DNA of 64,000 nt from Vibrio mimicus (GTDB taxonomy: Bacteria; Pseudomonadota; Gammaproteobacteria; Enterobacterales; Vibrionaceae), in assembly GCF_019048845.1 (NCBI RefSeq), contig NZ_CP077425.1, positions 744,001-808,000 of the forward strand, given 5' to 3'. Position numbers and translations under genes: made by a program. The notes beneath the pieces were generated by a model. The model was not told where the DNA came from, made no database searches, and saw only the letters and a program-made list of their open reading frames with translations. Of this stretch, positions 29,133 through 64,000 are shown piece after piece (within the stretch, counting starts at the first letter, position 1; every line of letters begins with the position of its first letter).

Positions 29133-29138
29133 TCGGGG

Positions 29139-29166
29139 CATCGGGACAGAGGTTTCTGCCCCGATG
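29139..29166 (+). other. speF-potE intercistronic hairpin
   Basis: CATCGGG...CCCGATG arms enclose CAGA...TCTG in the 67-base gap, without a following U run. It may tune relative speF/potE mRNA stability rather than terminate. Confidence 0.5.
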
Positions 29167-29199
29167 ACAACACGAAAAGACCCATAGAAGGGGAATATC

Positions 29200-30519
29200 A
29201 TGAGTAAATCCAATAACAAAATTGGTGTAGTGCAACTCACCATCCTGACTATCGTTAACATGATGGGGTCGGGCATCATTATGCTCCCGACTCAGCTTGC
29301 CCAAGTCGGCACCATTTCTATCTTATCTTGGTTAGTCACTGCCGCAGGTTCAACTGCCTTGGCGTTTGCCTTTGCAAAATGCGGTATGTTCAGTAAAAAA
29401 TCCGGCGGTATGGGTGGTTACGCCGAATACGCGTTTGGCCGCAGTGGCAACTTTATGGCCAACTATACCTACGCGGTTTCCTTGTTGATCGCGAACGTGG
29501 CGATTGCCATTTCCGCTGTCGGCTATGCCGATGTGCTGTTTGGCTTCCATCTCACTCCGATTGAAACCTGTATTGCGACTATTTTGGTATTGTGGGTCGC
29601 CACCGTGGCCAACTTTGGTGGTGCGCGCATTACTGGCCAAGTCTCCAGTGTTACCGTTTGGGGCATCATTATTCCGGTGATTGGGGTATCCATCATCGGT
29701 TGGTACTGGTTTGATTTTGACTTGTATCGCGCGGCATGGAACCCACATGGTTTGCCATTTTTCCAAGCGCTCGGCGGCTCAATTGCAATGACGCTGTGGG
29801 CATTCTTGGGTTTGGAATCGGCGTGTGCTAATGCTGATGCGGTGGAAAACCCAGAGAAAAACGTACCGATTGCGGTCATGGGTGGCACCTTGGGGGCTGC
29901 GGTGATTTACATCATCTCAACCAACGTGATTGCTGGGATTGTGCCAAACGCGGATCTGGCTAACTCGAACGCACCGTTTGGTCTGGCTTTTGCGCAGATG
30001 TTTAACCCAACCATGGGCGCGATTGTCATGGCGTGTGCGATAGTGTCTTGTACCGGTTCACTGCTTGGCTGGCAATTTACCATTGCGCAAGTGTTTAAAG
30101 CCTCGGCCGATGAAGGTTTCTTCCCTAAATTGTTCTCTAAAGTGACCAAAGCCGATGCCCCTGTACTAGGTATGCTGACCATCGTCTCGATTCAAACGGT
30201 GTTGAGTTTGATGACCATCAGCCCATCACTCAATAAGCAGTTTGAGGCGCTAGTGAATTTGGCGGTTGTGACCAACATCATTCCGTACATCCTCTCTATG
30301 GCTGCGCTGGGTGTGATGCAAAAGCAGCTCAATGTACCAGTGAGCCAAGCAAAAGTGGCCAACGTGATGGCCTTTATTGGTGCCATGTACAGCTTCTACG
30401 CGCTGTACAGTTCCGGTGAAACCGCGGTTATGCTTGGCTCGATTGCGACTTTCTTTGGTTGGGTGCTGTACGGTGCGATTTCTCGCTCACAGCAAAATAC
30501 CCCATTGAAACACGCCTGA
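29200..30519 (+). CDS. potE: putrescine/ornithine antiporter
   Basis: 439 residues and about 12 membrane helices of the APC superfamily. It starts KIGVVQLTILTIVNMMGSGI, with the GSG substrate motif typical of basic amino acid antiporters, and has GGMGGYAEYAFGRSGNF and WAFLGLESACANADAVENP. It exchanges internal putrescine for external ornithine and so partners SpeF. GAAGGGGA precedes the ATG. A terminator follows at 30548. Confidence 0.96.
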   Translation: MSKSNNKIGVVQLTILTIVNMMGSGIIMLPTQLAQVGTISILSWLVTAAGSTALAFAFAKCGMFSKKSGGMGGYAEYAFGRSGNFMANYTYAVSLLIANVAIAISAVGYADVLFGFHLTPIETCIATILVLWVATVANFGGARITGQVSSVTVWGIIIPVIGVSIIGWYWFDFDLYRAAWNPHGLPFFQALGGSIAMTLWAFLGLESACANADAVENPEKNVPIAVMGGTLGAAVIYIISTNVIAGIVPNADLANSNAPFGLAFAQMFNPTMGAIVMACAIVSCTGSLLGWQFTIAQVFKASADEGFFPKLFSKVTKADAPVLGMLTIVSIQTVLSLMTISPSLNKQFEALVNLAVVTNIIPYILSMAALGVMQKQLNVPVSQAKVANVMAFIGAMYSFYALYSSGETAVMLGSIATFFGWVLYGAISRSQQNTPLKHA

Positions 30520-30547
30520 TTGGGTTAACGCTTAAGGTATAAGATAA

Positions 30548-30575
30548 ACAGCGCGGCGAATCTGCGCTGTTTTTC
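30548..30575 (+). terminator. intrinsic terminator after potE
   Basis: ACAGCGC, 9-base loop, GCGCTGT, followed by TTTTCT. Confidence 0.88.
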
Positions 30576-30731
30576 TATCCGCGCTGTTTTCTATCTGATG
30601 TTTCTTTTTCATCGACTTTTCTTGCTCAAAAGCGGTGATATTCAAAACAAGTTTGTCCGTAACGCTTTTCAGCGCCTGTTGAACTGACTACACTAGGCGG
30701 CGTTTCAGAATCGTCTGAAACACAACAATAT

Positions 30732-30862
30732 TCTCAGGGCGGGGCGAAATTCCCCACCGGTGGTATGCCGCAAGGCGAGCCCACGAGCGCTCGATTCGTC
30801 GAGGTCAGCAGATCTGGTGAGAAGCCAGAGCCGACGGTTACAGTCCGGATGAGAGAGAATGA
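30732..30862 (+). promoter_or_regulatory. FMN riboswitch (RFN element)
   Basis: The conserved RFN blocks appear in order: CTCAGGGCGGGGCGAAATTC, CCCACCGGTGGTAT, GCCGCAAGGCGAGCCCACGA, GTCAGCAGATCTGGTGAGA, AGCCAGAGCCGACGGTTACA and GTCCGGATGAGAGAG. It lies about 115 bases upstream of ribB on the same strand. FMN binding is expected to lower ribB expression; there is no strong terminator before ribB, so translational control is possible. Confidence 0.97.
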
Positions 30863-30978
30863 CAAACACACTGAATCTCAAGGTGCGGCGTTGCTACATC
30901 TTTCGGTTTTCAGTGCTTTTCGTTTTGGATTTTGATCCCTCATAAGCCCTGATTCTGGTCATTTTTTGGAGTATTACC

Positions 30979-31635
30979 ATGAATCAGTCCTCATTACTTG
31001 CCGAATTCGGCGACCCAATTACTCGTGTAGAAAACGCACTGCAAGCCTTACGTGAAGGGCGTGGTGTGCTGCTGCTCGATGATGAAGATCGCGAAAACGA
31101 AGGCGATATTATCTACGCAGTAGAATCTCTTACTACAGCGCAAATGGCATTGATGATCCGTGAATGCAGCGGCATCGTCTGTTTGTGTCTGACTGAAGCG
31201 CAAGCCGATCGCTTAGCCCTGCCGCCTATGGTGGTCAACAACAACAGTGCGAACCAAACGGCGTTTACGGTATCGATCGAAGCCAAACATGGCGTAACCA
31301 CAGGAGTTTCCGCGCAAGATCGCGTCACCACCATCAAAACCGCCGCGAACCCACAAGCAAAGCCGGAAGATTTGGCGCGTCCCGGCCATGTATTCCCACT
31401 ACGTGCTCGTGCGGGTGGGGTATTGGCACGTCGTGGCCATACCGAAGGTACGGTTGATTTGATGCAGATGGCAGGTTTGCAGCCAGCGGGGGTGCTGTGC
31501 GAACTGACCAACCCAGATGGCAGCATGGCAAAAACGCCAGAAATCATCGAGTTCGGCAAACTGCACAATATGCCCGTATTGACCATCGAAGACATGGTGC
31601 AATACCGCATTCAGTTTGATCTGAAACTGGCTTAA
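30979..31635 (+). CDS. ribB: 3,4-dihydroxy-2-butanone-4-phosphate synthase
   Basis: 218 residues, the length of single-domain RibB. The acidic active-site loop is [20 protein letters not shown] (about 33-52), followed by [54 protein letters not shown] and [20 protein letters not shown]. It converts ribulose 5-phosphate to the four-carbon precursor of riboflavin. It stands alone behind the FMN riboswitch, outside the main rib operon, as usual in gamma-proteobacteria. Confidence 0.97.
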
Positions 31636-31658
31636 GATTTTTCTATTCCACATTATTT

Positions 31659-31704
31659 AAGCCCATGGTTCATTACTAAATCATGGGCTTTGGTTATTCT
31701 TTTC
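31659..31704 (+). terminator. probable terminator after ribB
   Basis: AAGCCCATG / CATGGGCTT stem with a 14-base loop, then TGGTTATTCTTTT. The U tract is interrupted. Confidence 0.65.
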
Positions 31705-31816
31705 TGCTGATAATTCATTTTATGTCAGCCAAATCCACTTTATGGGTAGGGATTCTTACATTTTTCTGACGTAATGGTGCTAGCCTTACCGCCAATTGTT
31801 GTACAGGAGATTGTGT

Positions 31817-32971
31817 ATGAAATTACACCATAGAGTTACCAGCATCATGGTATCGCTCCCCTTGCTACTCGGTGGATGTTCTTTATTGGAAGTGAAGCTG
31901 GATAGCCAAACTACGCCGTTAACTCAGCAAGAGCTGAATATGCGGCTGATGACTCGCGAATACGCTCACCAGTTTTTCTCTGCGGTTGAGCAAAGTGCCG
32001 ATCAAATCGCTGCACAATATGAAGCGCAAGATAAGCTGCATCAATCCTATGTGTTGCTTTGGAAAATCAATGCGGAAGAAGGTTTACAGCGTTCGGCTTA
32101 TCAGCTTTCGCCTATGGCTGCACTGATTGATAGTTGGGTTTTTACCCAGCAGATGGATAACTTTTTCCAAACGGGGAAAGGGCAATCACTTTTTAGCGGT
32201 GAGCAGGCTAAGCAAACGGCAGCCGGATTAACTCGCGATGTTGAGCAACTTGCCCAGTCACTACTGAAAAAAGAGAGCTATCAAACCGCCCAAGCTTTTG
32301 TGAAATCTTTTGCCAGCGTAAACCCTTTTACCGATCTCACTTTCACGCGTACTCCGGCTTATCGGGCTTGGCTGCAAGCGAATAAGATCGATGAAGCGCA
32401 AGCCGTTTCAACAGTAGGCACCATGCCAGAAGCGATGAGTGACGTTTCGGATCGGCTCAGCTTGGTATCGGAACAGTCACCGAAAATCATGACTTGGAAA
32501 GCACAATTGATTGCGATGAATAGTGCGTTGAGTGGTGAGCAACTGACGGAAACGCTGCAAAGCATTCAAGCTTCATCCGCTTCGTTTCAAGATTTTGTGA
32601 ACAATAATCCTGAATACATGCGTAACCTCGCGGAATATATGGCCATTGAGCTGCAACCCTTGGTGGAAGATATTGACCAGAAAACCCAGCAGCATTTGGA
32701 TAAACTCAGTGATGAGCGCGCAGCGCTGGAGGCGATGGTGGCCAGAGAGCGAACTGAAATCGCGGCGATTATCCATACCGAACGAGCGCAGTTTGCCGCT
32801 GATATTGATAAGATTTCGCAGAATGTGCTGGCGTTAGCGATGGATAAAGTCACGCAGTTAATAAAGAGCACCATCTTGTACTTTGTGCTGTTTATCGTGG
32901 TGATCTTTTTTGCTCCGCTCGGTCTGGGTTACTGGCTGGGTAAACGTTCTGCTGGAAAACAAACAAGCTAA
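31817..32971 (+). CDS. putative lipoprotein with C-terminal membrane anchor
   Basis: 384 residues from the ATG at 31817 (AGGAG 9 bases upstream). The lipobox LGGC gives a lipidated Cys at about 21 (SLPLLLGGCSLLEVK). The body is helical, with a coiled coil at about 285-345 (QKTQQHLDKLSDERAALEAM). A membrane helix follows at about 352-374 (STILYFVLFIVVIFFAPLGL) with a basic tail. A lipoprotein with a second, C-terminal membrane segment is unusual. I do not recognise the family. A strong terminator follows. Confidence 0.75.
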   Translation: MKLHHRVTSIMVSLPLLLGGCSLLEVKLDSQTTPLTQQELNMRLMTREYAHQFFSAVEQSADQIAAQYEAQDKLHQSYVLLWKINAEEGLQRSAYQLSPMAALIDSWVFTQQMDNFFQTGKGQSLFSGEQAKQTAAGLTRDVEQLAQSLLKKESYQTAQAFVKSFASVNPFTDLTFTRTPAYRAWLQANKIDEAQAVSTVGTMPEAMSDVSDRLSLVSEQSPKIMTWKAQLIAMNSALSGEQLTETLQSIQASSASFQDFVNNNPEYMRNLAEYMAIELQPLVEDIDQKTQQHLDKLSDERAALEAMVARERTEIAAIIHTERAQFAADIDKISQNVLALAMDKVTQLIKSTILYFVLFIVVIFFAPLGLGYWLGKRSAGKQTS

Positions 32972-32986
32972 GATTGTTCACAATAG

Positions 32987-33011
32987 AAAAAGGCGGGATC
33001 CCCGCCTTTTT
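32987..33011. terminator. bidirectional intrinsic terminator
   Basis: AAAAAGGCGGG ATC CCCGCCTTTTT between the lipoprotein gene and the convergent trmY gene. T runs flank the stem on both strands, so it can serve both. Confidence 0.92.
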
Positions 33012-33065
33012 GCTTTCATGTCACCGATTCAGTGAGCGGCTATTGAGCTAATTGAGTCGTTTGGT

Positions 33066-33671
33066 CTACCAGCCTGCTTCTTGATGATCAATCTCGTTAT
33101 GGATCAGCGTGACACACTGTGAAGCAAACAGCATTTTTGGCCCAAGGCTGATTTTTTCTACTCCAAGGCGCTTCATCGAGTTTCCACTCTTTTTCGGCAT
33201 CGGGATGTGATCGGTCAGAATAAAACACGGGTTCGGGCCGATCTTAATATCACGGATTGAATCGCCTTTTTTATCCATCATGTACAGTGAGTGATGCTCT
33301 GCCAACTCACCGAGTAGCGCTTCAAAACTGATAGTGCGCACGGTCAATCCCGGCTGAACCACACGAGTTTGTTCTTTTCCCATACCAACAGAGGCATCCA
33401 GCGCTTTCACCAACAGGGCAATCAACGCCGCTTCATGGAACCCGCCCACATCACTGATTTCATTCGCTTCGACCGTGATGGTGCGTGAATAATCGCGCGT
33501 GCTTTCCAATACCAGATGAATCACCACATCTTCACGATGGGACTGCGCGGTAAACAGGCTGTTCATCATGCAGTGAGCCAAAATTTCGGTATGGCATTTA
33601 CCACCAATTTCGTCCAGTAGGCGTTGGCTATCTGTCGGTGCGGAGCGAGCTCGAAGGATAAAACTGCGCAT
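33066..33671 (-). CDS. trmY: TrmY-type tRNA (pseudouridine54-N1)-methyltransferase (UPF0217)
   Basis: 201 residues from the ATG at 33671 (MRSFILRARSAPTDSQ); the frame is open four codons further. The SPOUT-type features are HCMMNSLFTAQSHREDVVIH near the N-terminus and the knotted C-terminal half with FILTDHIPMPKKSGNSM and EKISLGPKMLFASQCVTLIH. The family is mainly archaeal, where it methylates pseudouridine 54 of tRNA; bacterial members are known in Vibrio and relatives. The bacterial substrate is uncertain because bacterial position 54 is normally ribothymidine. Confidence 0.85.
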   Translation of the reverse strand: MRSFILRARSAPTDSQRLLDEIGGKCHTEILAHCMMNSLFTAQSHREDVVIHLVLESTRDYSRTITVEANEISDVGGFHEAALIALLVKALDASVGMGKEQTRVVQPGLTVRTISFEALLGELAEHHSLYMMDKKGDSIRDIKIGPNPCFILTDHIPMPKKSGNSMKRLGVEKISLGPKMLFASQCVTLIHNEIDHQEAGW

Positions 33672-33776
33672 GGTATTTCTCATTCGTTGTCATTCAAAGT
33701 GCGGTATTGTCGCTAAGCGCGCCGAACTTGACCAGTCTTTTATGCTGCCGTTTTGCGAGAGTCATGACTCGCCGAT

Positions 33777-34682
33777 TTATTCGATGACGCCCTGCTCAAA
33801 ATAACGCTTACTGAACTCAATAAACCGCTTTAAGCGCACCGGTTGATATTTGTCTTTATGGTAGATGAGTGAAAACTCAACGCTCGGGATATGCCAATCC
33901 TGAAACACTTCGACCAACTCGCCGCGGGCGATCTCTTGGTGGCAGTAGAAAGTGGGTACGCGAATGATGCCGTTATGCGCCAATGCCGCTCGAACTAACA
34001 CTCGGCCGTTTTTACACTGTAAATCTCCATCGACGGGTACATCGAGAGTTTGCTTCGTCTCTTTGTGTTGGTAGCTCCAACGTTTTACCGAACCGGTTAA
34101 GCAGCGATGCTCAGCGAGTTGCTTGGGATGTTGAGGTTGACCACACTGCGTAAAGTACGTAGGGCTAGCGAGCGTGCTCATGCTGATTTCGGTGAGTTTA
34201 CGCGCCACAAAGCTGGCATCTTCTAATTTTCCCATCCGAAATGCCACGTCAAAGCCTTCTTCAATCAAATCAACGCGATGACTACTGAAATCAAGGTGAA
34301 TACGCACATCGGGGTTTTCTTGCATAAAAGCACTGCAAATGTCGGCAATTAACTCTTCCCCAATATGCCCGCCCACACTGTTGATGCGTAGCTCACCGCG
34401 CGCTTCTTGCACATCATCTACAGCGGCTAACACGGCTTGTTCAATACTGCTCAAGGCTTGTTCGCATTGACGATAGAAGATCTCCCCAGCATCCGTGAGC
34501 GAAAGGCTGCGTGTAGTGCGGATGACAAGAGTGACGCCCATGCTATTCTCTAACTGGCTCAGCTGGCGTGAAACATGTGAGCGAGAAACCTCCAGCTCTT
34601 CCGCCGCTTTAGTAAAATTGCCGAGTTTCGCAATCAGTACAAAGGCGCGAATGTCGGCCAGATTAAGTTGGTTAAGTTGCAT
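33777..34682 (-). CDS. LysR-family transcription regulator
   Basis: 301 residues from the ATG at 34682 (AGGGA upstream); an upstream in-frame start at 34748 is less likely. The N-terminal winged helix is NLADIRAFVLIAKLGNFTKA with LEVSRSHVSRQLSQLENSMG, followed by a CrgA/AaeR-type effector domain (about 90-295). It diverges from the SDR gene at 34830, the standard arrangement for a LysR regulator and its target. The effector is unknown. Confidence 0.93.
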   Translation of the reverse strand: MQLNQLNLADIRAFVLIAKLGNFTKAAEELEVSRSHVSRQLSQLENSMGVTLVIRTTRSLSLTDAGEIFYRQCEQALSSIEQAVLAAVDDVQEARGELRINSVGGHIGEELIADICSAFMQENPDVRIHLDFSSHRVDLIEEGFDVAFRMGKLEDASFVARKLTEISMSTLASPTYFTQCGQPQHPKQLAEHRCLTGSVKRWSYQHKETKQTLDVPVDGDLQCKNGRVLVRAALAHNGIIRVPTFYCHQEIARGELVEVFQDWHIPSVEFSLIYHKDKYQPVRLKRFIEFSKRYFEQGVIE

Positions 34683-34829
34683 GAGCAATCCCTTATATTT
34701 GTCATTATTTGGCAACAGTTTGTGAACCTGTCGACTATATATCAACAATCTGCTTTCGCCTAGACTGCTCGCATTGCAACGAACTCCTGTGTTCAGGAGA
34801 ATTTTTCTAAGAATGAATGAGGTAATCCA

Positions 34830-35549
34830 ATGAAATCATTAGTCGTTATTACAGGTGCAAGTTCTGGTATTGGTGAAGCTATCGCACGCCGTTTCAGTGA
34901 AGCGGGTCATCCACTGCTGTTGGTGGCACGCCGTGTGGAGCGTTTAGAGGCACTGAACCTGCCCAATACACTGTGTGAAAAAGTGGATGTGACAGAAGCG
35001 GCGACCTTAGTGGCTGCGATTGCGAAAGCAGAAGCGCTATATGGCCCTGCGGATCTGCTGGTGAACAATGCCGGTGTTATGCTGCTTGGACAGATTGACA
35101 CGCAAGAGGCGAATGAATGGAAGCGCATGTTTGATGTGAATGTGCTAGGCCTGCTCAATGGTATGCACGCCGTGTTGGCCGATATGAAAGATCGCAACCA
35201 CGGTACGATCGTGAACATCAGTTCTATTGCGGGTAAGAAAACATTCCCGAATCATGCTGCTTACTGTGGAACTAAGTTTGCGGTACATGCGATTTCTGAA
35301 AACGTGCGTGAGGAAGTGGCTGCCAGCAATGTGCGTGTGACCACGATTGCTCCGGGAGCGGTAGAAACTGAACTGCTTTCACACACCACATCAAGCGAAA
35401 TTAAAGATGGCTATGATGCTTGGAAAGTGGACATGGGCGGCGTGTTGGCGGCGGATGATGTCGCGCGTGCGGTACTGTTTGCTTATCAGCAGCCACAAAG
35501 CGTGTGCATTCGTGAGATTGCGTTGGCACCGACCAAACAACAACCATAG
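34830..35549 (+). CDS. short-chain dehydrogenase/reductase (SDR)
   Basis: 239 residues of the classical SDR fold. It shows the TGASSGIG cofactor motif (7-14), LLVNNAGVMLLG (about 82-93), catalytic Ser in VNISSIAGKK and YCGTK (Tyr-x-x-x-Lys, about 149-153). The VARRVER stretch after the second strand suggests NADPH. Members of this subgroup (YdfG/clavaldehyde-type) reduce small hydroxy acids or carbonyls. The substrate is unknown, and regulation by the divergent LysR protein is likely. Confidence 0.92.
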   Translation: MKSLVVITGASSGIGEAIARRFSEAGHPLLLVARRVERLEALNLPNTLCEKVDVTEAATLVAAIAKAEALYGPADLLVNNAGVMLLGQIDTQEANEWKRMFDVNVLGLLNGMHAVLADMKDRNHGTIVNISSIAGKKTFPNHAAYCGTKFAVHAISENVREEVAASNVRVTTIAPGAVETELLSHTTSSEIKDGYDAWKVDMGGVLAADDVARAVLFAYQQPQSVCIREIALAPTKQQP

Positions 35550-35593
35550 TTCATTACGAAAGATGTGTTGATCCCAGATTTGGATGATTGAAG

Positions 35594-35623
35594 AAAGCGA
35601 CTCGAGAGGGTCGCTTTTCTTTT
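35594..35623 (+). terminator. intrinsic terminator after the SDR gene
   Basis: AAAGCGAC, 8-base loop, GTCGCTTT, followed by TCTTTT. Confidence 0.88.
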
Positions 35624-35821
35624 GCCAATAAATTCAGTTTGTTGAGTTTGAACCGCGCAATCTACTACAACTTTTGTTGCATTTTTTTTGTGAAAGGAAA
35701 GTGTGGTAGCTATGCTTGTTATGAGTATCTATTCCTATAACAAAATAGTTTTAATTTGATGACATATCGTTGGCGACATTTTGAATTTATGCAGGGCTGA
35801 ATATTTTTTCAGGGGAACAAC

Positions 35822-38134
35822 ATGAAAATTGCCAACAAAATCGTACTTTCAATGACTTTTCTTTCGATTGTTGCGGTGGTGATTGCAGGAGCGTGGATCG
35901 GCTGGAGTGCATCACGTCTTTCTGAACAAGCCATTTATAGCCGAGCATCGAATCAGTTGCTGTCGGTTCGAGAAACTAAGAAAAGTGAAATCGAACGCTA
36001 CCTGAACCGTGTAGGAGGGCAACTCACCACGTTGGCGAACATGGTTTCCACGGTTGATGCCATGGAAGAGTTGTCTAAGGCATTTCAAAACTATCCCGTT
36101 GATCAAGTTCCTGCTACTTCATTTAGCGCTTTAAAGGATTATTACACTTCTCAATTTGGCCAGAATTACCAGAAACTGAATGATGGTCAGGATGCCAATC
36201 CATTAACACGCTTAAGCCTCTTGTCCAAGCAGGGGGAAGCGCTGCAATCTCGCTACATTGCCAGCAACCCTAATCCGCTAGGTTCCAAGCATGAATGGAT
36301 GGGGGACTCTCTCGGTACGTCTTATGATCAGTTGCATCAAAAGTACCATCCTGGGATTAAACAGTATCTAGAGCAGTTTGGACTGTACGATGTGTTCATG
36401 GTCGATAACGATGGCAACGTGGTATACACCGTTTTCAAAGAACTCGATTTTGCTACCAACCTACTTAGTGGACCATACAAAGACACTGGTTTGGCAAGAG
36501 CTTATCTGAAAGCCAAAGCGTTGCCGGATAATCAGTATTACCTTGATGATTTTGCCCCTTATTACCCTTCCTACGAGGCCGCGGCTTCATTTATTGCAAC
36601 TCCTATTTTTGATGGTGAAACTCGTGTTGGAGTGCTGATTTTCCAAATGCCAGTGGATGAAATTAATCAAATCATGACCTTTGATGGGCGTTGGAAAGAA
36701 AATGGGCTGGGCGAAACTGGGGAGAGTTATTTGGTTGGTAGTGATCATTTGCTGCGCAGCCAACCTCGTCAGTTATTGCAAAATGAAGCGACATTCATTG
36801 GTGCATTGGATGTGATGAATGTTGACCGAGTAACGGTTAACCAAATCCGCAGTAAAAGTTCGGCGATTGGTTTATTGAGCATGAACACGCAAGCGGTGGA
36901 TAACGCGTTACGGGGTGAAAGTGGGCTGCTAATGGAGAACAACAGTGTTGGTGTCCACTTATTATCGGCTTATGCACCTATTGAGGCGCTCGGTTCACGT
37001 TGGGCATTGGTCACTGAAATGCAATCTAGCGAGGCTTTGGCTGATATTGCTTTGCTTAATAATGAAGTCATTTTAAAAGTTGTGATAGCGATTGTGGTGG
37101 CCGCCATTGCCGCAACTTTTGCCGCTTTAGCGGTAGGAAGAGGCATTTCAACCCCGATTCGTAATGCGATAAACCAAATTCAACGCATTAGCCAAGATAA
37201 CGACCTCACCGCCCGTTTGTCAGAGCAAGGCAGTGTTGAGATCAAACAGCTCGCGAAAGCGCTCAATACCATGCTTTCACATCTGCAGGACACTATTTGC
37301 CAGTTCGCTCAGGCGACCGATAAGTTGAACTCTCATACCCAAGTGATTTCGCAAAATATGGGGGGAACGCGTGATTCGGTTTCTGATCAGCATGAGCGTA
37401 CAGAATCGGTCGTGACTGCGGTCAACCAGATGAGTGCCTCCATCGCAGAAGTATCACAATTTGCGCAGCGTGCTGCTCAGTTTGTGCAAGAAGCCAACCA
37501 TAAAGGGCACAGTGGTGTATCAGTGGGCGATGAATTAGCGCGAGATATGACATCGATAAACCAACAGATGGCTTCAGCTGTTGAAGCCATTTCAAGGTTG
37601 AATCACGAAAGCCAATCTATTGCATCGGTACTCGATGTTATCCAAGCGATTGCCGAGCAGACCAACTTGCTGGCATTGAATGCGGCGATTGAAGCGGCTC
37701 GCGCCGGAGAGCAAGGTCGTGGTTTTGCGGTAGTGGCTGATGAAGTGCGTAATCTTGCAGCGAAAACTCAGACATCCACAGAGGAAATCCGCAATAAAAT
37801 TGACCGCTTGCAACATGAGACTCAATCGGTGGCCAGCTCAATCGAAGGGGCGAATAATACGGTGATGCGAGGGGTATCGACCTGTAATAGCAACACCGAC
37901 ATGCTCAAACAGATTGTGGATATGCTCAATGAACTGAATGAGATGAACATTCAAATCGCTACCGCAACGGAGCAGCAACGCAGCGTAACTGAAGAGATCA
38001 ACGCTAATATCACTTCGATTTCAGATGTCTCTTCATCAGTTACCGTACAGGTGGGTGAGGTGGACTCGATTGTGAATGAGCTCTCCCATGAAGCGACAGG
38101 TTTAAGCAAACGAATGGGACAATTCCGCTACTGA
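35822..38134 (+). CDS. methyl-accepting chemotaxis protein with large periplasmic sensor
   Basis: 770 residues. Helices lie at about 8-28 and 416-440 (VVIAIVVAAIAATFAALAVG), and enclose an almost 390-residue periplasmic region with DYYTSQFGQNYQKLNDG, MPVDEINQIMTFDGRWKENG and GESYLVGSDHLLRSQPR, a Cache-related type. HAMP (to about 495) and the signalling domain with [20 protein letters not shown] (about 610) follow. The periplasmic part is longer than in the receptor at 16807, and the ligand is unknown. GGGGAA precedes the ATG. Confidence 0.94.
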   Translation: MKIANKIVLSMTFLSIVAVVIAGAWIGWSASRLSEQAIYSRASNQLLSVRETKKSEIERYLNRVGGQLTTLANMVSTVDAMEELSKAFQNYPVDQVPATSFSALKDYYTSQFGQNYQKLNDGQDANPLTRLSLLSKQGEALQSRYIASNPNPLGSKHEWMGDSLGTSYDQLHQKYHPGIKQYLEQFGLYDVFMVDNDGNVVYTVFKELDFATNLLSGPYKDTGLARAYLKAKALPDNQYYLDDFAPYYPSYEAAASFIATPIFDGETRVGVLIFQMPVDEINQIMTFDGRWKENGLGETGESYLVGSDHLLRSQPRQLLQNEATFIGALDVMNVDRVTVNQIRSKSSAIGLLSMNTQAVDNALRGESGLLMENNSVGVHLLSAYAPIEALGSRWALVTEMQSSEALADIALLNNEVILKVVIAIVVAAIAATFAALAVGRGISTPIRNAINQIQRISQDNDLTARLSEQGSVEIKQLAKALNTMLSHLQDTICQFAQATDKLNSHTQVISQNMGGTRDSVSDQHERTESVVTAVNQMSASIAEVSQFAQRAAQFVQEANHKGHSGVSVGDELARDMTSINQQMASAVEAISRLNHESQSIASVLDVIQAIAEQTNLLALNAAIEAARAGEQGRGFAVVADEVRNLAAKTQTSTEEIRNKIDRLQHETQSVASSIEGANNTVMRGVSTCNSNTDMLKQIVDMLNELNEMNIQIATATEQQRSVTEEINANITSISDVSSSVTVQVGEVDSIVNELSHEATGLSKRMGQFRY

Positions 38135-52497: not shown

Positions 52498-52695
52498 TAT
52501 ACCCTTCCTACTTGAAGCTGCAGCGGTGTTGGCTACGTTCGTTCACCCCAATCACATAGTTTATCTATGCTCATGGGGATTATGAGAGCCATCCTTGGCT
52601 CTCACCAAAGGCCAGCCGATGGCTGTGCAAATTTGTTCCAGACAAATTTGTCACTCTCTTGCCGCCTACCTGCAACTCCAAGTAGTTTGAGTCTA
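52498..52695. repeat. ERIC-type element with an internal insertion of about 70 bases
   Basis: It begins TATACCCTTCCTACTTGAAG and ends CCAAGTAGTTTGAGTCTA. The core GTTCACCCCAATCACATAG...CTATGCTCATGGGGATT corresponds to the ERIC core (reverse complement of ...TGACTGGGGTGA...). Between about 52582 and 52655 an extra block forms two hairpins (GAGAGCC/GGCTCTC and CAAATTTGT/ACAAATTTG). Total about 198 bases, against about 127 for a standard ERIC. It fills most of the gap between the phosphohexomutase gene and the ABC permease gene. Confidence 0.85.
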
Positions 52696-52766
52696 ATTGA
52701 TATTTATTCTCAAAAATATCGAAGCAATCGCTAAACTGGCTTTGCTTCGATACCGTCTTTCATCGT

Positions 52767-56259: not shown

Positions 56260-56427
56260 CAATGATTTTGTTGTAAAGAAAAGTGGAATCTTGCCTTTAT
56301 TTAAAAATAGTGCTTGCGATATTTTCTGAGTGCCGATAAGTTACCCGAAGACACGACAGGTGCAGTAACTACCGTAGCGAGAGCCGTTACTCGCTAGGTG
56401 AACCAGAAAGTAAAGGAAGAAGTGACA

Positions 56428-57480
56428 ATGTTTCAAACCGATGATGTAAAAATTAAGAAAATTAAAGAGCTACTGCCACCAGTCGCGGTGTTAGAGAAAT
56501 TTCCGGCTACCGAAACCGCGTCTTCGACCACGTTTCAGGCGCGCGAAGCCATTCATAACATGCTGCAAGATAAAGACGATCGCCTGCTGGTGGTGATTGG
56601 CCCTTGTTCCATTCATGACCCGAAAGCGGCCATTGAATACGGTCAGCGTTTAAAAGCACTGCGTGATGAGCTCAGTGGTCAGTTAGAAATCGTGATGCGT
56701 GTATATTTTGAGAAGCCACGTACCACAGTCGGTTGGAAAGGATTAATTAACGATCCGTACCTCAATGACACCTATGAAATTAACGATGGTTTACGCATGG
56801 GGCGCAAACTGCTGCTGGATCTGACCGATCTGGGTATGCCAACCGCCAGTGAATTCCTTGATATGATCACCCCACAGTATGTGGCGGATCTCATCAGTTG
56901 GGGCGCGATCGGTGCTCGCACAACGGAATCTCAAGTGCATCGTGAGTTGGCTTCAGGGCTTTCCTGCCCAGTGGGTTTCAAAAACGGGACCGATGGCAAC
57001 ATTAAAATCGCTTCCGATGCGATTCGCTCTGCAGGCGCTTCGCACCACTTCTTGTCGGTCACTAAGTTTGGCCATTCGGCGATTGTCGAAACGGCGGGTA
57101 ACCCAGATTGCCACATTATTCTGCGTGGCGGTAAAGAGCCAAACTACAGCGCGGCGCACGTTAGCAATATCAAGCAAGAGCTGGAAGTAGCTGGCTTACC
57201 ACAAAAAGTCATGATCGATTTCAGTCACGCGAACAGCTCTAAGCAGTTCAAACGCCAAATGGTGGTAGCGGAAGATGTCGCGGCACAGATTGCCCAAGGT
57301 GAACATGCGATCTTTGGAGTGATGATTGAATCGCACCTTGTTGAAGGTCGTCAGGATCTGACTCCAGGTTGTAACCTGACTTACGGTCAATCCATCACTG
57401 ATGCTTGTATTGGCTGGGAAGATACTGAAACTGTATTGCGCCAACTGGCTGCGGCGATTGAAACGCGTCGCCAAGCTTAA
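56428..57480 (+). CDS. aroG: 3-deoxy-7-phosphoheptulonate synthase, AroG type
   Basis: 350 residues from the ATG at 56428 (AAGGAAG 8 bases upstream); the frame is open 10 codons further. It condenses phosphoenolpyruvate with erythrose 4-phosphate, the first step of aromatic biosynthesis. Class I alpha motifs are LLVVIGPCSIHDPKAAIEYG, VMRVYFEKPRTTVGWKGLIN, GAIGARTTESQVHRELASGL, DCHIILRGGKEPNYSAAHV and MIDFSHANSSKQFKRQM. The N-terminal IKKIKELLPPVAVLEKFPAT is closest to E. coli AroG, suggesting the phenylalanine-sensitive isoform. Confidence 0.95.
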   Translation: MFQTDDVKIKKIKELLPPVAVLEKFPATETASSTTFQAREAIHNMLQDKDDRLLVVIGPCSIHDPKAAIEYGQRLKALRDELSGQLEIVMRVYFEKPRTTVGWKGLINDPYLNDTYEINDGLRMGRKLLLDLTDLGMPTASEFLDMITPQYVADLISWGAIGARTTESQVHRELASGLSCPVGFKNGTDGNIKIASDAIRSAGASHHFLSVTKFGHSAIVETAGNPDCHIILRGGKEPNYSAAHVSNIKQELEVAGLPQKVMIDFSHANSSKQFKRQMVVAEDVAAQIAQGEHAIFGVMIESHLVEGRQDLTPGCNLTYGQSITDACIGWEDTETVLRQLAAAIETRRQA

Positions 57481-57497
57481 TTGTGTTGCTTAAATGC

Positions 57498-57531
57498 AAA
57501 GGCCCTTCACTGATGTGAAGGGCCTTTTTTA
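57498..57531 (+). terminator. intrinsic terminator after aroG
   Basis: A 13-base stem AAAGGCCCTTCAC / GTGAAGGGCCTTT with loop TGAT, continuing into TTTT. Confidence 0.94.
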
Positions 57532-57578
57532 TGGTGGCTTCTTAGTGTTAAAGATGGGCAGCGAGTGGTTTGAACCTT

Positions 57579-58907
57579 CTACGCGACCGCGTGACAAGCG
57601 TTTTCAAGCTGACGCAACGCTCGTTGATAGCTCAACCACGCAACCCAACCCGCTAAAATATTGCCCACTAACGCGCCAATAAACAGACCGGTAAGCCCGT
57701 AAACTTGCGCCCCGATCCATAAGCAAGGCAGATAAAAAGCAAACAGTCGTAAGGCCGAAATAGTTAACGCGACATAGGCTCTGCCAAGCGCATTAGCAAC
57801 CGATACCATCAACATACAGATGCCGAGTGCGCCTAAGCTGATTGGAACAATGGTTAAGTGTTGGAGCAAAATTGCCGCAACTTCAGTCTCACTGGTCATT
57901 AGCGATGACAGCTGGCTGGCTAGGAGATAAGTGGCTAGTGCAATCAGCAGTTGGAACCCAAGCACAAACTGGCAAGCGATGCGAACCAACTGGCGAATAT
58001 CCGCCACATTTTTAGCGCCGAGCATTCGCCCTACCATGGGAGGAATCGACATCGTCAGTGCCAGTACTGCCACTAAAGCAAAAAATTCAAATCGAGAACC
58101 CAACGCCCAAGCCGCTACGGCTGCCGTACCGAAACCTGCTAATAACTTGGTCGCGAACATAGAAGAGAGCGGTGGTAACAACTGGCTTAGCATTGCAGGT
58201 CCCATAATGTGACCGAGTGAGGTTAAGCTCTTCGCAATATCCAGATCATGCCAGTCGAAACTCATCCATTGGCGTTGAGTGACTTTAGGAGCCACGATGG
58301 CGATCCCGATGCCAAACGCCAAGATAGTGGCAATGGCTGCACCGTTGATGCCCCAATCCAACGTAAAAATAAACAGCGGATCCAGAATCAGATTCAGCAC
58401 GCTGGTCACCATCATCATAGTTCCGGGCAGCAGTGTGTTGCCGTTGGCACGGCATAAGCTGTAAAAGAAGTAGAGCATCGCGCCTGTCCAGGCACTCACC
58501 AACCACCAGATCCAGTAATGATCGATGATTTGCAGCACATCATCAGAGGCACCAAGCAAAGACAGTAGCGGATGGCGCAACAAATAAAGCAGCATGGCAA
58601 TTACAGCAACGCCAACACCACCGACCCCTACGACTAAACCGCCGAGCTGCTTTGCATAGCGTTCTTTGCCGGCGCCTAAAGCTCGGGAGATCACCGCCGT
58701 GGTGGCAATGCCTAAACCGACTTGCACACCAATGATCACCATTTGAATGGGCATGGTAAAGCCCTGTGCAGCAAGGGGAAGAATGCCGAGTTGGCCGATA
58801 AAAGCGCTATCAACCAATTGAAAACTCATTAATGACAGTACGCCAAATAACATTGGCCAAGTCATTTGGAAAAGTTGTTTCGCTAATGACGCAGAAGTGG
58901 TAGGCAT
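57579..58907 (-). CDS. MATE-family multidrug efflux pump
   Basis: 442 residues and 12 helices in two pseudo-repeats. MATE-type segments include MLFGVLSLMSFQLVDSAFIG, GQLGILPLAAQGFTMPIQMV, GLGIATTAVISRALGAGKER, and in the second half MLGAKNVADIRQLVRIACQF. It exports cations or drugs against Na+ or H+. It is transcribed alone, convergent with aroG. The substrate cannot be read from sequence. Confidence 0.94.
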   Translation of the reverse strand: MPTTSASLAKQLFQMTWPMLFGVLSLMSFQLVDSAFIGQLGILPLAAQGFTMPIQMVIIGVQVGLGIATTAVISRALGAGKERYAKQLGGLVVGVGGVGVAVIAMLLYLLRHPLLSLLGASDDVLQIIDHYWIWWLVSAWTGAMLYFFYSLCRANGNTLLPGTMMMVTSVLNLILDPLFIFTLDWGINGAAIATILAFGIGIAIVAPKVTQRQWMSFDWHDLDIAKSLTSLGHIMGPAMLSQLLPPLSSMFATKLLAGFGTAAVAAWALGSRFEFFALVAVLALTMSIPPMVGRMLGAKNVADIRQLVRIACQFVLGFQLLIALATYLLASQLSSLMTSETEVAAILLQHLTIVPISLGALGICMLMVSVANALGRAYVALTISALRLFAFYLPCLWIGAQVYGLTGLFIGALVGNILAGWVAWLSYQRALRQLENACHAVA

Positions 58908-59022
58908 AAGAGTTATTATCCAGATAAGTGTGATTGTTATATTTGGGTTAAATCTTTATTCACAACCCTAAATCTCGTTTTACTGGCAAAAAATCATCTT
59001 AGAAAATGGTGGGAAAATGGAT

Positions 59023-59053
59023 AAAAAAAAGCCTTGAAGGGGCGCTTCAAGGC
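59023..59053 (-). terminator. intrinsic terminator of the PAS chemoreceptor gene
   Basis: Minus strand: GCCTTGAAG, loop CGCCC, CTTCAAGGC, then TTTTTTTT. Confidence 0.92.
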
Positions 59054-59083
59054 TAAATAAGGTACAAGGAACTTATAAAATTC

Positions 59084-60640
59084 TTACAGTCGGCGGAACT
59101 GACTCACTAGGCTAGTTTGCGATGATAAGTTTTCCACTAGGTGTAAACATTCGTTACGTGTTCCTTCGGCTAAGACGAGGCTTGATGAAGAAACATCACT
59201 GATGGATTGCACGCTACGGTTCATATCTTCCGTCACTTTCGCCATCTCCTCCACCGCAGTGGCGATTTGTTCGTTACGCATTGCAATATCAGAGACTTGT
59301 GAGAGCAGAGTGGTCAACTTGTCACCTGATGTGTTGGCGCTGCTGACACAAGATTCAGAGAGTTGGTTGCCTTGTTCAATCGCATTCACGGCATTACGAG
59401 TACTGCTCTGGATCGAGGTAATCACTTCTTTAATCTCTTCGGTCGATTCCGTACTGCGTTGAGCCAGTTTACGGACCTCATCAGCAACAACTGCGAAGCC
59501 TCGGCCTTGTTCTCCCGCACGCGCTGCTTCAATCGCTGCGTTAAGAGCCAGTAAGTTGGTTTGTTCTGCAATGCTTTGAATCACTTCCATTACTTGACCA
59601 ATCGTTGCACTTTGTGCCGACAGTTGTTCAATGACTTTGCTTGCTTGAGCTAACTGGGTAGCCATGTGAGTCATGGCATCAACAGTTTGTTCTACCGCTT
59701 GCATCCCTTCTCGGGCAGCATTTTGCGCTTCACTTGTTGCATCGGAAGCGGCTTGAGCACTTTGAGCAATTTCCGTTGCCGTGATGTTCATTTGAGTAAT
59801 CGCGGCGGCGACTTGCTCGGTTTCTCTGGTTTGTGAATCTAAATTTTCTGCGGTGGTTTCGCTGTTTTTGGAGGAGAGTTTCGCAGCCTCACCTATTTGG
59901 ATGCTGGAGTCTTGGATGCGTCCCACTACGGCATTCAGTTCAGACTGGCGCATTTTCATCGCAAGTTTGATTTCAGAGAAATCATCGACTCTATCGTTGT
60001 ACACTAACTCCATCAGCGGGTTATCGAACACTTTTCTAGCCTCTTGTGAAAGCTCTTCGAGACGTCGAGTAAATTGGTACGCCATTGCTACAGTGAGCAG
60101 GAGCATTAAAGGAACTCCGGCACCAGTTAAGAAAAAGTCAGCGATGAAGCTGAGCCCTGCAGCAACCACAAATCCAGCACCTAAACGTTGCCACAATCGA
60201 GTGCGGGGCATTTTTAAGCGCCAATGAGTTTTACCTTCGCGAATCTGTTTGTAGAGTTTTTCTGCATTTTCAACATGTTGCCGACTCGGAGATAAACGGA
60301 CAGATTGGTATTCCACCACTTTGCCATTTTCTTTGATTGGTGAAGCAAAGGCATCAACCCAGTAGTAATCACCGTTTTTGCAACGGTTTTTTACCATGCC
60401 CATCCATGACTTGCCGGCTTTGATATGCTCCCACATATCTTTAAAGGCTTCAGGTGGCATGTCTGGGTGGCGAACCATGTTATGGGGTTGATTGATTAAT
60501 TCATCGAGTGTGTATCCTGCAACATCGCAGAAATCTTTACTCGCGTATTTAATATGGCTACTTAAAGTGGTGGTGGAAAGAAGATTAAAGTGAGGTGGAT
60601 AAGTCACTTCCTTCTGTGTAACAGGTTGATTGTTTCTCAT
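59084..60640 (-). CDS. Aer-like PAS-domain chemoreceptor
   Basis: 518 residues from the ATG at 60640 ([19 protein letters not shown] upstream); the frame is open 9 codons further. The N-terminal PAS domain (about 20-120: [40 protein letters not shown]) matches the FAD-binding aerotaxis type. It is followed by a short hydrophobic hairpin (about 160-195), a HAMP-like region, and the signalling domain with [20 protein letters not shown] (about 365). No periplasmic domain is present, so it senses an internal cue, probably redox or oxygen. Confidence 0.93.
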
Positions 60641-61130
60641 ATGTGCGCCCCGAAATTGGCCAAACAAAGTGAGCCTAAATCTGTCGTTGTTCCGTAGGAC
60701 TCATGTCAAACCGTTTAATTTAACATGGTCACTTCTAGGTATAGTTATCTATACCAAAGTATGCAAATCAACATGGGGCAATACTTCTTAAGTAGTATGT
60801 TTGTTAAATGATTTCGCAATAGATTGATAATCAATCTGTTTCATTACCTTTACTGTGGAGATTGCTCGTGCTTTTGACTGATTTCATCGTGCGTCAGCTA
60901 AGAATGTCTAATGCAATCAATGGCTCATCCCGGTTCGACTCTTGGCAGACTAAATCACCCATAGTCGAAAAACAGCGGTTGGAATTTCCTCGAGATTAGG
61001 TAGAGGAAAACTTGTCTGAATACCTCAAATCTTGTCTATAGCTTTAGAATCATAACAAGCCAATTAGATTGAACGTTTAATTTTAAGGTGATGTTGAGTA
61101 GTCTGCGCCTTTCCTTATCAAGGAGAAACC
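60641..61130. other. divergent intergenic region, PAS chemoreceptor / stressosome remnant
   Basis: 490 bases between divergent genes. It holds an 18-base palindrome GGTATAG-TTAT-CTATACC at 60738-60755 that looks like an operator. I see no ORF or terminator. The region before 61131 has AAGGAG 8 bases upstream of the ATG. Confidence 0.5.
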
Positions 61131-62006
61131 ATGAGGACAGTACAGTCATCCGTACTCAGTGATCCTGAAGCATTGCTTGCTTTGCATGATCTTACGGAAG
61201 CCGATCTCGCTTTGATTCGTAAGTTTGGTCAGATCATTCAGCCAAAACTTAAAGAGTATGTCACCCATTTCTACGGTTGGTTGCAGACTACTTCCGCCTA
61301 TGACCAATTTTTCCATGACCCCCTAAAGTTGACCCGAGTGCAAGATCAGCAACTGAATTATTGGCGTAGCTTTTTTAATGCACGAGTGGATGCGCAATAT
61401 GTGAAAGAACGAGCTGAAGTTGGGGAGGTTCATGCCCGAGTAGGGTTGCCTTTGCCCACCTATTTTGCAGGCATGAATATGTTGATGGTGATTTTTACCA
61501 AACGTATGTACGACGGCAGCCTTTACAGTGATGAGTACAGTTCTCTGGTCACGGCGTTTACCAAATTACTGCACATGGATACCACCATAGTGGTGGATAC
61601 TTATTCGCGCTTAATCAATAAAAAAATTTCTGAACAGAGCGAAGCGTTGTTGGCGATGTCGACACCGGTCACCATGATCTGGCAAGACATTTTGATGCTG
61701 CCAATTGTCGGGATCATCGATTCCAAACGCGCACAGGACATTATGATCACCGTGCTTAATAAAATCGCTGAATACCGTGCCAAAGTATTCATTATGGACA
61801 TTTCGGGTGTGGCGGTGGTGGATACCGCAGTGGCAAACCATTTCATTAAAATTACTAAGGCGACCAAACTGATGGGCTGTGAATGCCTTGTCTCTGGTGT
61901 TTCTCCCTCTATAGCTCAAACTATGGTGCAACTAGGCATCAATGTTGGGGAAGTAAAAACCAATGCTACCTTGCGATCTTCGAGGTTTGCGAGTGCTGCT
62001 TACTGA
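61131..62006 (+). CDS. RsbR-like stressosome protein (globin + STAS), C-terminus replaced by a deletion junction
   Basis: 291 residues. The N-terminal globin-type sensor (about 10-165) has a candidate heme-ligand His101 in EVGEVHARVGLPLPTYFAGM. The C-terminal STAS domain (about 180-280) has TPVTMIWQDILMLPIVGIID and IMDISGVAVVDTAVANHFIK, where the Thr in VVDTAVA matches the phosphorylated position of RsbR proteins. The STAS end runs normally to EVKTNATLR, then continues as SSRFASAAY in a frame belonging to the next gene's DNA. No rsbS or rsbT follows. The family is well supported; that the protein is still functional is doubtful. Confidence 0.82.
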   Translation: MRTVQSSVLSDPEALLALHDLTEADLALIRKFGQIIQPKLKEYVTHFYGWLQTTSAYDQFFHDPLKLTRVQDQQLNYWRSFFNARVDAQYVKERAEVGEVHARVGLPLPTYFAGMNMLMVIFTKRMYDGSLYSDEYSSLVTAFTKLLHMDTTIVVDTYSRLINKKISEQSEALLAMSTPVTMIWQDILMLPIVGIIDSKRAQDIMITVLNKIAEYRAKVFIMDISGVAVVDTAVANHFIKITKATKLMGCECLVSGVSPSIAQTMVQLGINVGEVKTNATLRSSRFASAAY

Positions 62007-63057
62007 AGATAATGAGATCAACCAGCAAATTGCCCTCGAACTTATGGAAGCCAAAGAGCTTTTAGTCACCACCGCTAATAATGGCAAAGAAGCACTCGAA
62101 CATTTGGCCCACTCTTTAGAAACTCAGCAGCGTTTTGACATCATTTTCATGGATTTACAAATGCCTGTGATGGATGGTTATGAAGCGACACGCCATATTC
62201 GCTCAATTCCAGAGCATAATGACACCCCACTGATTGCGATGACTGCCCATGCCATGGTGGAAGAACGCGAGCGCTGTTTGGGCATAGGGATGAACGATCA
62301 TGTATCCAAGCCCATCGACCCAGATTTGCTCTATCGAACCATTGGCAAGTGGTGTGAAAGAAAAACAGTGCCGCAAACAGAAAGCCTCACTCGGCGAGAG
62401 TCTATTCATCCCCAAGCATCGAGTGCGAAGACTCGCTTTGAATTGAGTGATATCGAGTTTTTGGATGTGAAAAATGGTCTGTTGAGAGTCGCTGGAAATG
62501 AGAAGTTGTATCGGCGTTTACTGTCACAGATGTTGGATAAAGAGCACAACATCGTTAAGCGTATTGAATTGGCCTTGGAGCAGCAGGATCGAGAACTCGC
62601 GGTTATGTATGCACATACTTTAAAAGGAACCGCCGCCAATTTAGGGGCGATGAGAGCTTCTGATATTGCTGCTCGACTCGAAATGGCGTTAGACAAAAAG
62701 AGCGATGTAACTCAGCTTCAAGGCTTATTGAACGAGTTAACAAGCCGCCTTGAGCACTTCTTTGCCCTAGTGGCTAAAGCACTGAATCGACCGAATCCCA
62801 GTAGAACTAGCACACAAGCGTTAAATAAAGAGACGATTGCCATCTTGCACCAGCTTCATCTCTATCTTTTGGACATGGATGCAGCGGCGCTCGATTTTCT
62901 TGAACAGCACGACCTACATCTCAATACCTTGTTCAAATCTGAGGATTTTGCGATTTGTTGCCAATTGATCAGTGAGTGTGATTTTGCTGCTGCGGAAGTG
63001 GCATTAAGGCGTGCTGTCAGCCTCTACCCATTGGATTTAGACAAGATTTATGGATAA
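61963..63057 (+). pseudogene. C-terminal remnant of a hybrid histidine kinase (receiver + HPt)
   Basis: Up to 364 residues. It opens directly in the inter-domain linker typical of hybrid kinases (DLRGLRVLLTEDNEINQQIA), followed by a receiver domain (about 8-125; phospho-Asp in IIFMDLQMPVMDGYEATR, VSKPIDPDLLY) and an HPt domain (about 165-260; phospho-His in YAHTLKGTAANLGA), then an uncharacterised tail. Sensor, dimerisation and ATPase domains are missing, and the first codons overlap the RsbR-like gene by 44 bases in another frame without a ribosome site. I read it as what remains after a deletion that joined two genes. Confidence 0.8.
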
Positions 63058-63304
63058 ATCGATCATGAGTGAACTAGAAACTATCTTGATTGTGGATGAT
63101 AACCCTGAAAATCGGGCGTTGTTGGCTGGATTACTTAAACCTCATTATCGCCTGCTAGTGGCGGTGAGTGGGGCGCAGGCTCTGGCGATTTGCCATAAAC
63201 AGAAACCGGATCTTGTTTTGCTTGATATCATGATGCCAGAAATGGATGGCTATGAAGTGTGTCAACGGATGAGAGCGATGAGAGCCAGTACTGGCTCTCA
63301 CTAA
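63050..63304 (+). pseudogene. truncated response regulator (receiver domain fragment)
   Basis: 84 codons. It overlaps the kinase remnant stop (ATGGATAA), with an alternative ATG at 63065. The receiver begins normally (ETILIVDDNPENRALLAGLL, phospho-Asp in DLVLLDIMMPEMDGYEVCQR) but stops after RMRAM. The last codons, RASTGSH and the stop, are supplied by an ERIC-insert-like sequence starting at 63278. A full receiver needs about 35 more residues (Thr/Ser and Lys switch), and an output domain is absent. Confidence 0.85.
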
Positions 63305-63322
63305 AGGCTAGGCTATGGCTGT
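63278..63322. repeat. fragment of the ERIC-insert type repeat
   Basis: 45 bases here align without gaps to 52582-52626, the extra block inside the full ERIC-type element, with 37 identities (ATGAGAGCC...GGCTCTCAC...AAAGGC...ATGGCTGT). The GAGAGCC/GGCTCTC hairpin is preserved. It marks the truncation point of the response regulator. Confidence 0.8.
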
Positions 63323-63403
63323 ATAAGTGTGCTCCCGATAGATAGGCCACTTACCCGTTGCCCACAACTCGATTCTGGTTGGGCATGCGCGTAATCATTT
63401 AGT

Positions 63404-64000
63404 TTACACCATCCCTTCTTTTTCCACCCACCGTGGTCTGGCGACTTCATCCACCAGATACAAGATGGATTGATAAGGAATGCCGCTGTGGTGTGATAAG
63501 CCGATTTCACACGTGCGGCTGTTACTAAAACCACGGCTACAGTGCGCTGGCACTTGCTCTTTGAGCGAATGGACGGCAGCGGCATTGAGCTCAGGCGTAG
63601 TAAAGCCTTTGTCACCCGCCCAGCCACAGCACTGAATGTGCTCAGGCACTATCACCTCACTGGCGCAGGCTTTCGCCAATTTCAGCATATCGTTTTCTAA
63701 GCCGAGGCGGCGCGAGCTGCAAGTGACATGCAGCATGATGGTTTCTTGCTTCGGCGCGAGTGTTAGGTGATCCAGTAAGTAACGACTTACCAACCCCGTT
63801 GGCTCCAGAATTTCCATCGGTTTGGTAAACTGCTCAATGCTGCGTTTGGCGCACGGGCTAGTGTCCATCAATATCGGATAACGCCCCCCTTGGCTGGCTT
63901 GCCATAAAGCGTTTTCCAACTGCTGGGCTTTGCTTTGTGCAATCTCGGTCATCCCTTTGCTGTCATAAGGCATACCGCAGCACTGGCTGCTGAGCTCTGT
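63404..64000 (-). CDS. C-terminal part of an FAD/4Fe-4S lactate-dehydrogenase-type oxidoreductase (edge-truncated)
   Basis: The frame is open to the window end; 198 residues are visible and the gene continues beyond 64000. Two CCG (heterodisulfide-reductase/GlpC-type) cysteine modules are seen: SSQCCGMPYDSKG at the edge and IQCCGWAGDKGFTTPELNAA, with LHVTCSSRRLG and SNSRTCEIGLSHHSGIPYQS between and after. These are typical of the C-terminal half of large D-lactate/2-hydroxyacid dehydrogenases fused to an iron-sulfur domain. An internal ATG at 63973 is not the start. Confidence 0.82.
   Translation of the reverse strand, partial: TELSSQCCGMPYDSKGMTEIAQSKAQQLENALWQASQGGRYPILMDTSPCAKRSIEQFTKPMEILEPTGLVSRYLLDHLTLAPKQETIMLHVTCSSRRLGLENDMLKLAKACASEVIVPEHIQCCGWAGDKGFTTPELNAAAVHSLKEQVPAHCSRGFSNSRTCEIGLSHHSGIPYQSILYLVDEVARPRWVEKEGMV

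Follow-up and report, generated by a model that had tools for sequence, protein, structure and literature searches.

The window (the whole stretch analysed, 64,000 nucleotides) corresponds to positions 744001-808000 of contig C1 (1,082,652 bp) in a Vibrio genome of 4.35 Mb that is assembled in 3 contigs and is 100% complete. Near its end, between genes for a chemotaxis protein and a D-lactate dehydrogenase-type enzyme, we find three frames in succession on the + strand (Table 1). Pfam places Protoglobin and STAS in the first, receiver and HPt in the second and positions 1-68 of 111 of the receiver family in the third; among the NCBIfam results listed, no family scores above its cut-off for the three proteins. 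Upon scanning 60600-63450, we observe 1 promoter site versus 4.8 expected and 5 terminator-like sites versus 2.2 expected, all of the latter within coding frames. The plasmid collection gave no match.

Table 1. Features of the remnant locus and its flanks, in window positions.
Feature	Positions	Strand	Remarks
PAS-containing methyl-accepting chemotaxis protein (MCP)	59084..60667	-	conserved neighbour on the side away from dld
rsbR* (fused, shortened rsbR frame)	61131..62006	+	291 aa; residues 1-282 RsbR-like, then 9 from kinase DNA in a different frame
Receiver-HPt frame	61963..63057	+	364 aa; C-terminal tail of a hybrid kinase (VvD1 homologue), from residue 687 of the V. mimicus CAIM 602 kinase on
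Junction 1	61975..61977		rsbR match to 61975/61976, kinase match from 61975; overlap ~2 bp
Truncated response regulator (VvD2 homologue)	63050..63304	+	84 aa; ~75 receiver residues, then 9 unrelated
Junction 2	63276..63278		regulator DNA adjoins ERIC-like arm; 8-bp word ATGAGAGC twice, side by side
Partial outer arm of dispersed ERIC-like repeat	63278..63351		74% over 74 bp to fuller copy at 52582-52655
80 bp from repeat arm to conserved dld DNA	63352..63431		no longer match; from 63404 onward codes for the altered final residues of dld
dld 3' end (putative name), FAD/Fe-S D-lactate dehydrogenase-type	63404..64000	-	95-96% identity to relatives from 63432 on

Examining the first frame, we find that rsbR* follows intact RsbR through R282 in the alignment of RsbR proteins and then diverges, the final 24 residues of the 306-aa form being replaced by the 9 others. 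Its Protoglobin match is near complete (E 6e-29; profile 7-154 of 158), and a complete C-terminal STAS is absent, the match (E 1e-13) ending at profile position 94 of 106, whereas the RsbR of V. mimicus CAIM 602 reaches 106 of 106. Position 118 is serine in 10/10 other aligned RsbR proteins and leucine in rsbR*. The structure 7o0i_B of the PDB matches residues 9-284, and in an AlphaFold model of the fused protein the globin part is well modelled (block means of 73-94 for residues 11-160), with pLDDT below 50 for residues 244-291. A control model of the intact RsbR of Vibrio sp. RC586 is also below 50 over residues 170-306, and a helix at 281-291 is drawn in the control and absent from the fused protein, at low confidence in both. 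Confidence in both models, built from the same 11 sequences each, is confined to the globin half, 11 being too few for the STAS part, and the models are uninformative on the folding of the shortened STAS.

Across the genus, the RsbR query matches in 36 of 148 genomes and is near full-length at ≥70% identity in 17 of them, the window's own genome being counted both times; in all 16 other near full-length relatives the match stops at query residue 284 and their frames continue. The nearest RsbR among these 148 genomes is that of V. mimicus CAIM 602 (97% identical), and Vibrio sp. RC586 carries a 306-aa RsbR with the usual C-terminus, which aligns to 98% of the query at 99% identity. Within its own genome the query found itself alone, and queries with RsbR, RsbS, RsbT and RsbX located no second copies of stressosome genes elsewhere.

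The comparison with V. mimicus CAIM 602 (locus L031) shows what the fusion has removed. By blastn, window 61088-61975 corresponds to L031 11329-10441, ending in a clean break, and window 61975-63276 to L031 6931-5624, so that the points joined at junction 1 are 3,510 bp apart in the relative. Missing from between them are the last 24 codons of rsbR, rsbS (115 aa), rsbT (149 aa), rsbX (198 aa) and, of the kinase, residues 1-686; these carry PAS, HisKA and HATPase as well as one of its two receiver stretches, the second being placed at residues 693-809. A first-pass annotation, made from the letters alone, had proposed that rsbR was fused by deletion to a hybrid-kinase tail in another frame, with the centre gone, the outer parts kept and the junction near 61970-61980, and the alignments bear it out on each of these points. 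It had also advised looking for short homology at the junction; the overlap of about 2 bp is present and no long repeat was seen, judged against V. mimicus CAIM 602 only. The RsbS, RsbT and RsbX proteins of this relative gave no match in the window's own genome at E 1e-3 in searches run without a positive control; tblastn with the same proteins does recover relatives, at 24-59% identity. Homology to intact loci is collinear on either side of junction 1, which places the remnant in descent from a Vibrio-type operon.

The second frame is 82% identical to residues 687-1053 of the V. mimicus CAIM 602 kinase, and the kinase query finds 67 matches in all in the window's own genome, at many other kinase and receiver places. 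Translation from ATG 61963 gives 364 aa, and from GTG 61993 gives 354 aa, which is the form in the protein database. This GTG lies 7 nt downstream of a GAGG, with a 14-nt overlap between the frame that it opens and the end of rsbR*, and it is possible that the receiver-HPt protein is translated from it, putatively coupled to termination of rsbR*. The third frame lacks the rest of its receiver and the HD output domain. An intact VvD1-VvD2 two-component module is therefore absent, what is left being the kinase tail from residue 687 and about 75 residues of the regulator.

That the response regulator is truncated had been recognised in the first-pass annotation, and its receiver is indeed cut after about 75 residues; missing from that account was that the cut is a second breakpoint. 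Homology to VvD2 of V. mimicus CAIM 602 ends at 63276 and resumes at 63432 in dld (blastn), and the counterparts of these positions are ~4.5 kb apart in the relative and 155 bp apart in the window. The relative encloses there the rest of VvD2, ppsA (817 aa, with three PEP-utilising-enzyme domains in its product) and a kinase/pyrophosphorylase gene (PF03618) that is probably PSRP, with ppsA lying between PSRP and VvD2. Junction 2 is read as a deletion by comparison with V. mimicus CAIM 602, the sole relative compared that has ppsA at the site. One copy of the 8-bp word continues VvD2 and the second belongs to the repeat arm. A perfect 22-bp inverted repeat occupies 63279-63300, inside the arm.

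The arm at 63278-63351 resembles an element in 52501-52720 that has 59 matching pieces in its own genome, several of which often make up one copy, 40 of 54 candidates having been scored. Aligned to an ERIC core sequence, the fuller copy scored 57, the maximum of 100 shuffles being 35, and 63265-63440, which holds the outer arm alone, scored 19 and 24 on the two strands, not exceeding shuffle means of 23 and 25. A repeat origin for the entire 63265-63440 was considered and rejected, as the arm alone matched and the remainder found short matches (16-24 bp) in its own genome.

We also find no ppsA elsewhere in the window's own genome, where a query with PpsA of V. mimicus CAIM 602 finds three matches, all weak and partial (60 bits at best). 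They sit in two frames, of 576 and 751 codons, that presumably encode PTS enzymes. The PpsA family model is above cut-off in 179 of 227 genus genomes. The best E-values for the family are 8.9e-39 in the window's own genome, 7.0e-39 in the related genome G034 and 9.5e-39 in both G058 and G088, versus 0 in V. mimicus CAIM 602, from which we infer that ppsA is missing in the first four and present in the last, where gene content agrees. In the excerpts of two papers, VCA0987 is named ppsA in V. cholerae, so that the clade is mixed for this gene. When nine proteins of the V. mimicus CAIM 602 locus are searched by tblastn against the MCP-dld stretches of G034, G058 and G088, dld alone is found. ERIC-like copies occur in the MCP-dld spacer of G088 and G034 and none was found in that of G058, and G034 retains a sequence resembling the spacer that separates PSRP from dld in V. 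mimicus CAIM 602 (L031 3-1199). Judged by these sequences, this suggests losses at the MCP-dld site in more than one lineage. The ERIC-like copies lie at L095 2891-3081 and 4980-5117 and at L094 5201-5335, the genomes there also being without ppsA, and G058 carries two tandem MCP copies beside dld (L096 3642-7020), 75% and 69% identical to the window MCP.

The empty sites of G034, G058 and G088, which have no stressosome between MCP and dld, are what would be expected if the short arrangement were ancestral and the full operon had been built later. We consider this extremely improbable, since the rsbR frame breaks in a conserved C-terminus and runs out of frame into the kinase linker, and since all 33 named loci, among them records with the labels Myxococcales and Prochloron, show the long form with RsbT. 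In these 33 loci (tblastn), RsbR is followed by RsbS in 32 and RsbX in 29, and a kinase match lies downstream in 32, which outside Vibrio may be any hybrid kinase. Because RsbT follows RsbR in every one, the short form is derived. The survey of relatives that the first-pass annotation had called for thus yielded no intact relative with the short arrangement, and the order that it had given for V. vulnificus, rsbR-rsbS-rsbT-rsbX-kinase-regulator, appears in print in the portions of the papers available and in every one of 14 loci (L036-L048 and L065; 13 Vibrio and one Aeromonas diversa by their labels). When the DNA of 59084-64000 is compared with the 227 genus genomes, no match from rsbR outside the window's own genome passes 61977 among those listed.

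We next consider whether the remnants have decayed. No internal stops are found in the remnant frames, and dN/dS between the window and V. mimicus CAIM 602 is 0.016 for rsbR (282 codons), 0.028 for the regulator (75 codons) and 0.040 for receiver-HPt (357 codons; dS 2.7, near saturation). Tajima tests of the three fragments with nine outgroups gave chi2 ≤2.0 in 26 of 27 cases and 4.0 in one (rsbR with V. zhanjiangensis as outgroup; 4 window versus 0 mimicus changes). Where ≥80% of the outgroups share an amino acid, window-only versus mimicus-only replacements number 1:0 in rsbR, 1:0 in receiver-HPt and 0:0 in the regulator. Relaxed selection as a sign of age was not seen, there being no consistent excess of substitutions. 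The 354-aa receiver-HPt product is listed with 22 contigs (6 member sequences) and the truncated regulator, in a 79-aa form, with 24 (2 members), counts that copies of one assembly in several sources may inflate; in both cases the longest contig is as long as C1. Open frames, no consistent acceleration and presence in 22-24 contigs together suggest a young loss common to several records, and the label of a long-decayed fossil given in the first-pass annotation is not upheld.

The same counts bear on an assembly artefact or chimeric contig, which the closeness of the two breakpoints and the single genome of the species in the comparison might bring to mind. We regard this as highly improbable, given a genome of 3 contigs at full completeness and both products recurring in other contigs, even if one assembly's copies could inflate that recurrence.

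Continued use of some kind would also be compatible with frames that are open in 22-24 contigs. The locus could be a rewired working module, in which O2 is bound by the orphan globin-STAS protein and receiver-HPt acts as a shuttle or a drain for phosphate from other hybrid kinases of the cell. In favour of this, family matches persist for Protoglobin, most of STAS, receiver and HPt, the model of the globin part is of good confidence, no consistent rate increase is seen, the GTG start is preceded by its GAGG and overlaps the rsbR* stop, and the kinase query has matches at many further kinase and receiver places of the genome. However, the RsbS and RsbT partners are not found, the STAS match is cut short, S118 has become leucine, and a recent deletion also accounts for the open frames; we therefore hold a working module to be very unlikely. 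That the deletion itself made a new pair that has been kept, with an O2-binding globin-STAS orphan translationally coupled to a free receiver-HPt serving other hybrid kinases, is in our judgement very unlikely.

Upon examining the flanks, we observe that the dld end is 94.7-96.5% identical among the compared genomes. The identity of the window MCP is 80% to V. mimicus CAIM 602 and 75-77% to G088, G058 and G034. In window 26970-36000 the main pieces match G088 at 97% identity, G058 at 95-96% and both V. mimicus CAIM 602 and G034 at 93%, with lesser pieces at 83% (V. mimicus CAIM 602) and 72-73% (G088 and G058). For aroDAHP, MATE and MCP, the window is 96, 94 and 80% identical to V. mimicus CAIM 602 versus 90, 81 and 75% to G088. 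Between clade members, divergence is much greater in the DNA of MATE, MCP and the stressosome (56398-61975) than at the dld end. These sequence comparisons suggest allele exchange around the stressosome site.

Overall, the locus is very probably a Vibrio-type stressosome operon that was disabled recently. Its ancestor would have carried MCP, then rsbR-rsbS-rsbT-rsbX-hybrid kinase (VvD1)-response regulator (VvD2), then ppsA-PSRP, then dld. One deletion of ~3.5 kb would have brought codon 282 of rsbR up against the kinase, immediately ahead of its second receiver. In a second loss, ~4.5 kb by V. mimicus CAIM 602, the remainder of VvD2 would have gone together with ppsA and PSRP, with a partial ERIC-like repeat left behind at the joint. 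That the events were separate and recent, which of them came first, and that function was lost are inferred. In stressosomes, RsbS is the scaffold, RsbT the switch kinase and RsbX the phosphatase; RsbT acts on RsbR and RsbS and relays the signal, and RsbX resets it, as described in part in PMC9237108. With RsbS, RsbT, RsbX and the kinase core missing, an O2 signal is not relayed by the stressosome route, and such signalling is excluded on gene content. As leftovers, the globin-STAS orphan and the loose receiver-HPt protein may continue to be produced.

Operon deletion remnants are common in bacteria, so this one, which is left from a system of known kind, is of interest mainly to specialists. 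The locus represents a halfway state between intact relatives and relatives with nothing left at the site, and provides at least one case in which internal deletion gave rise to the patchy distribution, ppsA also being lost there. The reason for the restriction of stressosomes to a few Vibrio species is called "presently unknown" in the portion of PMC9237108 available, and no mention of such a remnant was found in the parts of the Vibrio stressosome literature covered.

Compared with V. mimicus CAIM 602 (L031/L036), the window shares the neighbourhood of MCP and dld, with DNA identities of 87% in rsbR, 76-78% in the kinase tail and 85% in the regulator, whereas the relative has a complete R-S-T-X-D1, ppsA, PSRP and an extra pcp-like gene. 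The latter, a pyrrolidone-carboxylate peptidase-like gene named by eye, lies between rsbR and MCP (L031 11508-12152), and the rsbR-MCP spacer of the window is too short for it. VvD2 of V. mimicus CAIM 602 (L031 4600-5850) stops inside the HD domain and similar coding goes on in another frame, which appears to be a frameshift in the draft record or a sequencing error. In V. vulnificus, the excerpted literature gives the order rsbR-S-T-X-VvD1-VvD2 (PMC10014275; PMC9237108), and the window resembles this system in its globin-STAS RsbR (82% to a database entry labelled V. vulnificus), its receiver/HPt hybrid kinase, its receiver-HD regulator, their order and their strand, and differs in having no rsbS, rsbT, rsbX, kinase core, first receiver or regulator output half. 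According to the part of PMC10014275 available, the stressosome locus occurs in 317 of 720 V. vulnificus genomes, a distribution that is patchy as it is here, but in which the locus is either present or not, whereas the window holds a partial deletion caught midway.
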